Of a stretch of DNA of 64,000 nt, positions 15,866-46,422 are shown piece after piece. The notes beneath the pieces were generated by a model that had not been told where the DNA came from, searched no databases, and saw only the letters and a program-made list of their open reading frames with translations. The position numbers and the translations under genes were made by a program. Source of the DNA: Streptomyces sp. NBC_00287. GTDB taxonomy: Bacteria; Actinomycetota; Actinomycetes; Streptomycetales; Streptomycetaceae. The stretch covers positions 6,572,001-6,636,000 of the forward strand of contig NZ_CP108053.1 in NCBI RefSeq assembly GCF_036173105.1, in the 5' to 3' direction. Position 1 is the stretch's first letter. Each line of letters begins with the position of its first letter.

Positions 15866-15907
15866 ATGCGCACCCGAATTCTCGTACTTGGAAAGCGCGT
15901 CGGCTGA
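15866..15907 (+). CDS. ilv operon leader peptide (13 aa)
   Basis: ATG 15866, preceded by GGGAGGG at 15851-15857, encodes MRTRILVLGKRVG and stops at TGA 15907. Four consecutive branched-chain codons (Ile-Leu-Val-Leu) plus a second Val sit in the middle. A hairpin begins at the base after the stop codon and an intrinsic terminator follows, which is the classic layout of a ribosome-mediated attenuator for branched-chain amino acid genes. The peptide itself is presumably disposable; its translation speed is the signal. Confidence 0.8.
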   Translation: MRTRILVLGKRVG

Positions 15908-15983
15908 CGCTGAGCCCTTGACCGCTCAGCGACCCACTCCCGGCGCGCTCCCCTCGCTTGCCTTACGGCACGAGGGGTTTTTT
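15908..15983 (+). promoter_or_regulatory. ilvBNC transcription attenuator
   Basis: First hairpin 15908-15931: CGCTGAGC paired with GCTCAGCG across an 8-nt loop, starting immediately after the leader-peptide stop. Terminator hairpin 15950-15977: CCCCTCG/CGAGGGG with an inner TGCC/GGCA stem, then TTTTTT at 15978-15983. A ribosome stalled on the Ile-Leu-Val-Leu codons would alter the first hairpin. I could not work out by eye a single unambiguous antiterminator. Confidence 0.75.
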
Positions 15984-43246: not shown

Positions 43247-44515
43247 GTGTTCAGAACAATGCGTGGGGTGTCCGTCGTTGTGCTCGCGGGGGCGATGGTC
43301 GCGCTGTCGGCCACGTCCGCGGCGCCGGCGCCGAAGCCGGGGCCCGAGCGGATCACGCTGACGGCGACGGGGGAGCAGATCGAGAAGGGGTCGGGCGGTG
43401 CGGCGCTCACCGCTGACGGCCGCTATGCCGCGTTCGTCTCGGAGGACGCCGATGTGGTGCCCGGCGACACCAACGGGCGGACCGATGTGTTCATCCGGGA
43501 CCTGCGCCGGGGAACCGTCGAGCGGGTCAACGTCGCGTCGGACGGGACGCAGGCGGAGGGCGGCTGGGGCAGCCATCGGGTGGAGATCAGCGCCGACGGC
43601 CGGTATGTCGCCTTCATGTCCTCGGCGAAGAACCTCGCCGAGTGGCCCGAACCGCCCACCGGCCAGGTGGAGGACGTCTACGTCCACGACCGTCGCACCG
43701 GCCGCACGGAACGGGTCAGCGTCGCCGCCGACGGCGGTTCCGCCTGGACGTTCGACACCTTCGACATGTCGGCCGACGGCCGGTATGTCGCCTTCGGCGC
43801 CTCGTCGCAGCGGATGGAGGGGGCCGCGAACAGTCAGACCCTCGCCTACGTCGTCGACCGCCGCACCGGCGTCGCCAAGCGGATCAGCGACCACATCCCG
43901 TCGGACTGGTACGTCCCGAGCGTCACCCTGAGCGCCGACGGCAGCCACCTGACCTATGTGCAGCGGCACCCGCGGGGCGGGCGGCACGAGTTGTGGCACG
44001 TCGATCTGGGCACCGGTGAGCAGAAGCTGGTGAACGCGACCCCTGGCGGCGAGCCCACCAACGGCGGCCCGGGCGGCGCGACGCTCTCCGCGGACGGCCG
44101 GTTCGTCGCGTACAGCTCCTTCGACGAGAGCGTGGTCCCCGAGGCGCCGCAGTACACCTGGGAGCTCTACCTGTACGACAGCCGTACCGGGAAGACCCGG
44201 TGGATGACCCACGAAGGCAAGGGCGGGCTCGGCGCCGGTCTCCTCAGCCCCGACGGCCGCCGCCTCGCCTACAACACCGAGATCAAGTCGGGCGACGACA
44301 CCGTCGCGGAGAACGTCCATGTCCGGGATCTGAGGACCGGCCGGACCGAACTCGTCACCCGCACCCTCGCGGGCGGAGCCCAGACCAAGGGATACGCGGC
44401 ACCCAGCGCCTTCGCCCGGGGCGGCCGGCTCCTCTCCGTCTACTCGTCCTCGTCCGAACTCGTCCCCGGCGACACCAACGGCACGGGCGACGGCTTCCTG
44501 CACCGTCTACGGTGA
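43247..44515 (+). CDS. secreted TolB-like/PD40 beta-propeller protein
   Basis: 422 residues from GTG 43247 (GGGGGA just upstream). A Sec signal peptide (VSVVVLAGAMVALSATSAAP) is followed by repeated blades built on LTADGRYAAFVSEDADVVPG, ISADGRYVAFMSSAKNLAEW, MSADGRYVAFGASSQ and LSADGRFVAYSSFDESVVPE: the S-A-D-G-R-Y-V-A-F pattern of PD40/WD40-like propellers, about six blades. Asp-rich turns such as GDTNGRTDVF suggest calcium binding. No catalytic domain is attached. The likely role is extracellular binding; the partner is unknown. Confidence 0.78.
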   Translation: MFRTMRGVSVVVLAGAMVALSATSAAPAPKPGPERITLTATGEQIEKGSGGAALTADGRYAAFVSEDADVVPGDTNGRTDVFIRDLRRGTVERVNVASDGTQAEGGWGSHRVEISADGRYVAFMSSAKNLAEWPEPPTGQVEDVYVHDRRTGRTERVSVAADGGSAWTFDTFDMSADGRYVAFGASSQRMEGAANSQTLAYVVDRRTGVAKRISDHIPSDWYVPSVTLSADGSHLTYVQRHPRGGRHELWHVDLGTGEQKLVNATPGGEPTNGGPGGATLSADGRFVAYSSFDESVVPEAPQYTWELYLYDSRTGKTRWMTHEGKGGLGAGLLSPDGRRLAYNTEIKSGDDTVAENVHVRDLRTGRTELVTRTLAGGAQTKGYAAPSAFARGGRLLSVYSSSSELVPGDTNGTGDGFLHRLR

Positions 44516-44573
44516 CCGACCGCATTCTGAGACAACCGTGAGTGAGGCACGGGGGCTGTGCCAGACTGCCTCC

Positions 44574-44624
44574 GTGCTCTCGTTCGCCATGATTATTGGC
44601 AGCAGGCGCGCCGGTCCGCAGTGA
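44574..44624 (+). CDS. cimA leader peptide (16 aa, tandem Ile codons)
   Basis: GTG 44574 lies 7 nt after CAGACT (44562-44567), suggesting a leaderless transcript. It reads MLSFAMIIGSRRAGPQ and stops at TGA 44624; ATG 44589 is an internal start in the same frame. Two adjacent ATT Ile codons, rare in this GC-rich genome, are followed by the stop, a hairpin and an intrinsic terminator. This is a credible isoleucine-sensing leader for the isoleucine-pathway gene downstream. Confidence 0.65.
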   Translation: MLSFAMIIGSRRAGPQ

Positions 44625-44704
44625 CCGCCACGTACGACCAGGTACGGGCGGACACCGTCGTCCTCGACCCGCGCGCAGACCTCTCGCACCCGCGAGGGGT
44701 TTTT
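44625..44704 (+). promoter_or_regulatory. cimA transcription attenuator
   Basis: Hairpin 1 (44625-44651): CCGCC-CGTAC paired with GTAC-GGGCGG with one bulged A, starting at the base after the leader stop. Terminator hairpin (44680-44699): CCTCTCGC/GCGAGGGG around ACCC, then TTTTT at 44700-44704. The layout parallels the ilvBNC attenuator in this same window. The remaining 113 bp to the cimA start contain only its ribosome site AGGAG (44803-44807). Confidence 0.7.
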
Positions 44705-44817: not shown

Positions 44818-46422
44818 ATGACGGAAACCAGCGAGCTCGACGACTCGTTCCACGTCTTCGACACCACCCTGCGCGACGGCGCCCAGCGTGAGGGCATCAA
44901 CCTCACCGTCGCGGACAAGCTGGCCATCGCACGGCACCTGGACGACTTCGGCGTGGGCTTCATCGAGGGCGGCTGGCCCGGCGCCAACCCGCGGGACACT
45001 GAGTTCTTCGCCCGCGCCCAGCAGGAGATCGACTTCAAGCACGCCCAGCTCGTCGCCTTCGGCGCCACGCGCCGGGCGGGCGCCAAGGCGTCGGACGACC
45101 CGCAGGTCAAGGCGCTCCTGGAGTCGGGCGCCCCGGTGATCACACTGGTCGCCAAGTCCCACGACCGGCATGTGGAACTCGCGCTGCGCACCACCCTGGA
45201 CGAGAACCTGGAGATGGTCCGGGACACGGTGTCGTTCCTGAAGGAGCAGGGCCGCCGGGTCTTCGTCGACTGCGAGCACTTCTTCGACGGCTACCGCGCC
45301 AACCCCGAGTACGCGAAATCCGTCGTCCGTACGGCCTCGGAGGCCGGCGCCGATGTCGTGATCCTCTGCGACACCAACGGCGGCATGCTCCCGGCGCAGG
45401 TCCAGGCGGTCGTCTCGACGGTGCTGGCCGACACGGGCGCCCGGCTCGGCATGCACGCCCAGGACGACACGGGGTGCGCGGTCGCGAACACGCTGGCGGC
45501 GGTGGACGCGGGCGCGACCCACGTCCAGTGCACGGCGAACGGGTACGGCGAGCGGGTGGGCAACGCCAACCTGTTCCCGGTGGTGGCGGCGCTGGAGCTG
45601 AAGTACGGCAAGCAGGTCCTGCCGGAGGGCAAGCTCCGTGAGATGACCCGTATCTCCCACGCCATCGCCGAGGTGGTGAACCTGACCCCCTCCACCCACC
45701 AGCCCTACGTCGGTGTCTCGGCCTTCGCCCACAAGGCGGGCCTGCACGCCTCCGCGATCAAGGTCGACCCGGATCTGTACCAGCACATCGACCCCGAGCA
45801 GGTCGGCAACACCATGCGGATGCTGGTCTCCGACATGGCGGGCCGCGCCTCGGTCGAGCTCAAGGGCAAGGAGCTGGGCGTCGACCTGGGCGGCGACCGT
45901 CAGCTGGTCGGCCGGGTGGTCGAGCGGGTGAAGGAGCGCGAGCTCAAGGGCTACACCTACGAGGCGGCGGACGCGAGCTTCGAGCTCCTCCTCCGTGCCG
46001 AGGTCGAGGGCAAGCCCCTGAAGTACTTCGACGTCGAGTCCTGGCGAGCGATCGTCGAGGACCGGCCTGACGGCAGCCACGCCAACGAGGCCACGGTCAA
46101 GCTCTTCGCCAAGGGCGAGCGCATCGTGGCGACGGCGGAGGGCAACGGCCCGGTCAACGCCCTGGACCGCGCCCTGCGCGTCGCCCTGGAAAAGATCTAC
46201 CCTCAACTCGCCAAGCTGGACCTGGTCGACTACAAGGTCCGCATCCTGGAGGGCGTCCACGGCACCCAGTCCACGACCCGAGTCCTGATCTCGACGTCCG
46301 ACGGGGCGGGGGAGTGGTCGACGGTGGGCGTGGCGGAGAACGTGATCGCGGCGTCTTGGCAGGCGCTGGAGGATGCGTACGCGTACGGGTTGCTGCGCGC
46401 GGGCGTGACACCGGCGGAGTAA
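44818..46422 (+). CDS. cimA: (R)-citramalate synthase
   Basis: 534 residues from ATG 44818. HMGL-like catalytic barrel: FHVFDTTLRDGAQREGINLT, GVGFIEGGWPGANPRDTEFF, metal ligands in the HAQDDTGCAVANTLAAVDAG segment, and VQCTANGYGERVGNANL. SAFAHKAGLHASAIKVDPDL and a C-terminal LeuA-dimer regulatory domain (VRILEGVHGTQSTTRVLIST) follow. The ERVGNANL and FIEGGWPG variants are those I associate with CimA-type rather than isopropylmalate synthases. It condenses pyruvate and acetyl-CoA to citramalate, a threonine-independent route to 2-oxobutyrate and isoleucine. The Ile-Ile leader supports this. Confidence 0.88.
   Translation: MTETSELDDSFHVFDTTLRDGAQREGINLTVADKLAIARHLDDFGVGFIEGGWPGANPRDTEFFARAQQEIDFKHAQLVAFGATRRAGAKASDDPQVKALLESGAPVITLVAKSHDRHVELALRTTLDENLEMVRDTVSFLKEQGRRVFVDCEHFFDGYRANPEYAKSVVRTASEAGADVVILCDTNGGMLPAQVQAVVSTVLADTGARLGMHAQDDTGCAVANTLAAVDAGATHVQCTANGYGERVGNANLFPVVAALELKYGKQVLPEGKLREMTRISHAIAEVVNLTPSTHQPYVGVSAFAHKAGLHASAIKVDPDLYQHIDPEQVGNTMRMLVSDMAGRASVELKGKELGVDLGGDRQLVGRVVERVKERELKGYTYEAADASFELLLRAEVEGKPLKYFDVESWRAIVEDRPDGSHANEATVKLFAKGERIVATAEGNGPVNALDRALRVALEKIYPQLAKLDLVDYKVRILEGVHGTQSTTRVLISTSDGAGEWSTVGVAENVIAASWQALEDAYAYGLLRAGVTPAE

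Follow-up and report, generated by a model that had tools for sequence, protein, structure and literature searches.

How would a Streptomyces match the citramalate route to isoleucine to its supply of that amino acid? The question is raised by the region upstream of cimA, the gene for citramalate synthase, which takes the first committed step of one route to isoleucine, in Streptomyces sp. NBC_00287; the region lies in a 64,000-nucleotide stretch of contig NZ_CP108053.1 (positions 6,572,001 to 6,636,000; the window, whose coordinates are used below). An earlier note on this DNA had described a 16-codon open reading frame (ORF) with adjacent ATT ATT codons, followed before cimA by an 8-bp terminator stem with five Ts, and had proposed codon-based attenuation of cimA by isoleucine. 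Direct reading confirmed the ORF (44574 to 44624) and the terminator. The proposal itself was supported by leuS and ilvB leaders of like architecture, which carry Leu and Leu/Val codons, respectively. Judged from these sequence comparisons, the cimA leader is very likely a ribosome-mediated transcription attenuator that makes cimA depend on charged isoleucyl-tRNA. Its parts are as follows.

44557 to 44567, forward strand: extended -10 promoter element TGTGC-CAGACT, with the start codon 6 nt 3′ of it; conservation, 0.98 (81 Streptomyces sequences).
44574 to 44624, forward strand: leader ORF VLSFAMIIGSRRAGPQ, 16 codons plus TGA, probably leaderless, with the transcript beginning at GTG.
44592 to 44597, forward strand: putative regulatory codons ATT ATT (Ile-Ile), 14 and 11 nt 5′ of the first base of helix P1.
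44606 to 44616, forward strand: 5′ arm of helix P1, GCGCGCCGGTC, within the ORF (folding and covariation).
About 44624 to 44652 (approximate limits), forward strand: internal hairpin P2 in the P1 loop (folding), variable and absent from lineages with short P1 loops.
44666 to 44676, forward strand: 3′ arm of helix P1, GACCCGCGCGC, adjoining the terminator with a gap of 0 (covariation).
44677 to 44704, forward strand: intrinsic terminator AGACCTCTCGC-ACCC-GCGAGGGG-TTTTT (folding and both-sided pair changes).
44818 to 46422, forward strand: cimA, citramalate synthase, 534 amino acids, the controlled gene (TIGR00977; ORF list).

The leader ORF starts with GTG at 44574, stops with TGA at 44622 and reads GTG CTC TCG TTC GCC ATG ATT ATT GGC AGC AGG CGC GCC GGT CCG CAG TGA; its last third is the P1 5′ arm. 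The terminator hairpin, AGACCTCTCGC-ACCC-GCGAGGGGTTTTT, has an 8-bp core (44680 to 44687 with 44692 to 44699) followed by T5 at 44700 to 44704, and the stem reaches 11 pairs when A-U and G-U pairs with the T run are included. A simple terminator scan did not report it, probably because the stem extends into the T run. The 137-nt leader RNA folded at -68.6 kcal/mol (z of -4.9 versus shuffles). The assignment of the controlled gene to citramalate synthase was borne out by a TIGR00977 match of 641 bits (cutoff, 450). The hairpin that had been placed right after the stop codon is present (P2) but is only a variable internal hairpin inside P1, and a picture of two hairpins proved too simple, as it left out the conserved helix P1 (44606 to 44616 with 44666 to 44676). 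At both gathering and relaxed thresholds, the leader had no relevant match in Rfam, the T-box model included.

The strongest evidence for the predicted codon sensing is a swap of codons between genes. A covariance model built from cimA leaders only (R1) found matches in 172 of 257 Actinomycetes genomes; among the matches listed, 109 of 150 stand in front of a listed cimA, at distances of 5 to 222 nt (median, 55). In its own genome R1 found three sites, at cimA (5.8e-20), at the ilvB leader (4.8e-5) and at the leuS leader (8.7e-5). Twenty other R1 matches were fetched, most of them before further cimA genes and the rest before ilvB, leuS, ilvA or the gene for a small unnamed protein. The ilvB leader falls in the same window.

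15866 to 15907, forward strand: ilvB leader MRTRILVLGKRVG (whole architecture, 15866 to 15983); no Rfam match.

Here P1 pairs 15895 to 15903 with 15940 to 15948, and the terminator adjoins from 15949, its T run extending to 15983. The codon slots have the same geometry throughout and are filled differently: cimA leaders carry Ile-Ile, leuS leaders have Leu in the three slots before P1 in 16, 19 and 20 of 20, ilvB leaders have Leu/Val, Val and Leu/Val in most of 17, and ilvA leaders (n = 3) have Ile in the last slot. Automatic ORF choice was wrong for a few entries (e.g., L208, L219, L234, L253 and L257), so that the real agreement is somewhat higher. Most gene names for secondary matches came from conserved protein motifs, with representatives checked against NCBIfam. 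Since R1 prescribes the adjacency of P1 and terminator, the gap in secondary matches is not independent evidence, while the codons are. Codon identity that tracks gene function in an otherwise equal RNA is predicted by ribosome stalling and is not predicted by a ligand or protein sensor. L258, L261, L263 and L265, weak R1 matches that fell at a tRNA-linked terminator and at other genes, were judged false.

The leader is maintained throughout Streptomyces. Loss of the short ORF in this genus had been named beforehand as grounds for giving up the proposal; at the 80 closest cimA loci, the Ile-Ile ORF was kept in 80 of 80 (Ile-Met in two). The peptide reads VLSFA(M/T)IIGSRRAGPQ with minor changes, as in VLSFAMIIGSRRAGPQ and VLSFATIIGSRRAGPQ. 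Per-base conservation (mean majority-base frequency over 81 sequences) was 0.99 for the ORF, 0.996 for the P1 3′ arm and 0.98 each for the terminator and the extended -10 box, compared with 0.63 just 5′ of the promoter and 0.82 to 0.92 between terminator and cimA. The leader Ile codons are mostly ATT, while the cimA coding sequences of the same 80 loci contain 1,458 ATC and 4 ATT codons. Two further candidates in this region were rejected: an inverted repeat around the -10 box, GCACGGGGG...CCCCCGTGC, occurs in some Streptomyces only (e.g., L006, L018 and L083; the -35 region averages 0.735), and GCAGACCYCTCG was not enriched as a genome-wide motif over a reversed control.

In a wider set of 165 leaders upstream of cimA, drawn also from other families of the order and class, the parts follow one another as in Streptomyces, although outside this genus the peptide is wholly different apart from Ile-Ile (MQQQPQIITACAPAPEQR, MLPQAIIIVRRAG, MHYGLLIIGRRAG, VAQALIIG, VALPLIIA and MFYCMIII). 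The shortest leaders, such as VALPLIIA and MFYCMIII, have 8 codons. Just 5′ of P1, mostly at 7 to 14 nt from it, there are two Ile codons in 137 of the 165 leaders and three in 11. Between the -10 hexamer and the start codon, 125 of the leaders have 6 nt and 24 have 7 nt. Because the start codon sits 6 nt after the extended -10 box, the cimA leader transcript is probably leaderless and starts at GTG; published S. lividans leader peptides are mostly leaderless as well (PMC8079986). The leader was not present at divergent cimA paralogues (L150 to L152), at one second copy (L113) or at one further copy (L137).

Helix P1 and the terminator were both supported by covariation. In an alignment of 32 sequences, their pairs were standard in 94.3% of cells, compared with 38 to 54% for slid control pairings, and 11 of 21 pairs were changed on both sides (49 cells versus 11 in shuffles). 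Leaders in which both arms of P1 have changed show, for example, GCGCATCGAC:GTCGATGCGC, GCGCGTCGAC:GTCGACGCGC and GCGCAGCGG:CCGCTGCGC. The P1 loop ranges from 3 to 57 nt across taxa while both flanking spacings stay fixed. On the 3′ side, the terminator begins directly after P1 in nearly all leaders; the P1 finder was restricted to the vicinity of the terminator, which favours a small gap but does not impose a gap of exactly 0. On the 5′ side, the first base of an Ile codon lies 6 to 14 nt, mostly 11 or 14 nt, from the start of P1 in the 165 leaders. The front edge of a ribosome lies at about +12 from the A-site codon, and this distance thus fits the front edge of a ribosome holding that Ile codon in its A site.

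Two other pairings were tried. A 1:2-type hairpin, in which the start of the ORF would pair with the 5′ arm of P1, had a mean z of -0.5, with z below -1 in 14 of 40 leaders; only as a universal element was it rejected, short leaders giving it no support. An antiterminator formed between the terminator 5′ arm and the leader was rejected: of the pairings noticed by eye, neither AGG:CCT nor CTCTCG:CGAGGG was kept across taxa, and partition functions for the stalled state yielded none.

From the ORF, codons, spacings, P1, terminator and codon swap, all established by comparison, we infer the following course of transcription, stalling and read-through during starvation. RNA polymerase would start at or next to GTG, and a ribosome would load on the leaderless 5′ end. 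With plentiful isoleucine, the ribosome would translate both Ile codons and continue to the stop codon, covering or disrupting the P1 5′ arm; the terminator would then fold, and transcription would end before cimA. When isoleucyl-tRNA is short, the ribosome would stall with an Ile codon in the A site, which would bring its front edge up to the base of P1. The helix would then fold against the ribosome, and RNA polymerase would read through into cimA. As to how termination is prevented, we tentatively suggest a steric block. P1 would loop out the RNA between stalled ribosome and terminator and leave no single-stranded RNA there, so that closing the terminator base would force ribosome and RNA polymerase closer together than both bodies allow. 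At the pyrL terminator in vitro, termination was suppressed by a ribosome close behind RNA polymerase (PMC10135430).

Several observations weigh against this attenuation model. P1 and the terminator share no bases, and equilibrium folding lets both coexist (mean probabilities, 0.94 for P1 and 0.98 for the terminator), so that P1 is no antiterminator by base competition. The 1:2 hairpin draws support from Streptomyces and from some other lineages, yet none from short leaders. Many cimA genes of certain lineages (35 of 150) have no element among the matches listed. A few Streptomyces leaders keep a single Ile (ATT ATG). Finally, and as a serious caution, a statement in PMC1262725 has it that changes of candidate regulatory codons in the S. 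coelicolor ilvB leader, the nearest relative that has been studied, were without regulatory effect.

Two variants of attenuation were also considered. In one, the main role of P1 would be that of a pause hairpin, at which RNA polymerase waits until the ribosome has caught up, and a starved ribosome would block termination in some other way. Pausing hairpins belong to classical attenuators, and in Streptomyces a nearly invariant GCAGACCTCTCG directly 3′ of P1 goes beyond what pairing needs; outside Streptomyces, however, the sequence at this position varies, and pausing alone does not explain antitermination, which makes this variant unlikely. The other variant, which we consider equally improbable, is classical attenuation with an overlooked antiterminator that shares bases with the terminator, for example AGG or GAGG just 5′ of P1 pairing with CCT or CCTC of the terminator 5′ arm. 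Many Streptomyces and family f19 leaders do have AGG or GAGG before CGCGC, and an antiterminator hairpin was named for leuS by Seliverstov et al. (PMC1262725), but several related leaders (e.g., L094, L141 and L182) lack the complementary bases, and in the stalled state the terminator 5′ arm is mostly unpaired before its 3′ arm is made (mean, 0.14).

The codon result reported for S. coelicolor ilvB would be in line with control of cimA without codon sensing, for instance by a protein or ligand that binds P1 and the terminator while the ORF merely keeps the RNA unfolded. Yet leaders that are otherwise equal differ in their codons according to the gene, and reading frame, start codon and promoter spacing are all conserved; we regard such control as very improbable. 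Still farther from plausible, to the point that we give it almost no weight, is that the terminator simply serves the upstream gene (43247 to 44515) and that the ORF arose by chance. The terminator does follow that gene, on the same strand and at a distance of 162 nt, but the element has its own promoter, an ORF conservation of 0.99 and tight linkage to cimA across the class.

R1 also pointed to genes other than cimA, ilvB and leuS. In three genomes (L217, L218 and L223, in G507, G478 and G488), a leader with an Ile codon (M-G/A-I-T) precedes ilvA, the gene for threonine ammonia-lyase, and the cimA upstream regions examined in that lineage (L183 and L189) are without a leader. Two other loci (L211 and L216, in G552 and G479) have the leaders MFALVIIM and MFTPRIII, along with P1 and terminator, ahead of a gene for a protein of about 107 to 115 amino acids. 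By eye this protein is ACT-like, without an NCBIfam match, and it might be a new regulator or subunit in isoleucine synthesis. Outside the class, several R1 matches lie before ilvB, with leaders ending in Leu-Val-Leu-Ile; one lies before a leuA-like gene (L268; leader MSQNLLLT) and one before a leuB-like gene (L284; leader MSSFQVAIG), so that leucine genes of other classes may have this architecture too. Four more (L270, L283, L267 and L277) precede genes for isocitrate lyase-like and isochorismatase-type hydrolase-like proteins, which are not obviously branched-chain functions.

The cimA leader has three of the features by which an attenuator is recognised: a conserved ORF, end-product codons 8 to 14 nt 5′ of a helix that they are positioned to gate, and a terminator between ORF and gene. 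It shares the leader ORF with end-product codons and the terminator before the gene with classical trp, his and ilv attenuators, but there the antiterminator overlaps the terminator, whereas P1 adjoins the terminator without overlap. Its closest relatives are the Streptomyces ilvB (MRTRILVLGKRVG) and leuS (MRAVRLLLSEPR) leaders, which also have a leaderless short ORF, branched-chain codons and an intrinsic terminator (PMC1262725, PMC8079986) and which, as found here, have helix P1, its zero gap to the terminator and the spacing of the codons in common with it; R1 matches both. In contrast with them, the cimA leader carries Ile-Ile, would control citramalate synthase, is absent from the published lists and occurs far beyond the small number of genomes described for them. 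The trpE leader of Streptomyces sp. NBC_00287 differs in its terminator and has no R1 match. The LEU element upstream of actinobacterial leuA likewise has a leader ORF with end-product codons (PMC1262725), but cimA leaders carry a conserved terminator with T5 to T6. An actinobacterial ileS T-box would also respond to isoleucyl-tRNA; unlike it, the cimA leader was not matched by the T-box covariance model.

The predictions published by Seliverstov et al. (2005) comprise leaders for trp, ilvB and leuS as well as a LEU element at leuA and T-boxes at ileS, but cimA is not among them (PMC1262725), and a reannotation of S. lividans TK24 gave eight leader peptides, cimA not included (PMC8079986). The earlier note had taken attenuation of cimA to be undescribed, and no leader or attenuation of cimA or citramalate synthase was found in the open-licence literature searched. 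What is new is that no overlapping antiterminator was found where one would be expected, and that several genes have the zero-gap arrangement, each with its own codons. It is conceivable, if short of probable, that this represents a generic actinobacterial attenuator, in which a switch hairpin folds against the stalled ribosome with zero gap and no terminator overlap, termination is blocked sterically and the codon slots set the amino acid, and that it has been reused for cimA, ilvA, ilvB, leuS and possibly leuA and leuB.

For the class as a whole, these data predict control of the citramalate route to isoleucine by isoleucyl-tRNA. One lineage has no leader at cimA and carries the element ahead of ilvA, at the other entry to the pathway. 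With codons exchanged between leaders that are otherwise alike, the sensing logic can be tested directly. The zero-gap layout of hairpin and terminator poses the question of how a stalled ribosome would prevent termination without a competing helix, and it may bear on the unexplained codon mutation result for S. coelicolor ilvB. In practical terms, the leader would provide a handle for deregulating the supply of branched-chain precursors in Streptomyces.
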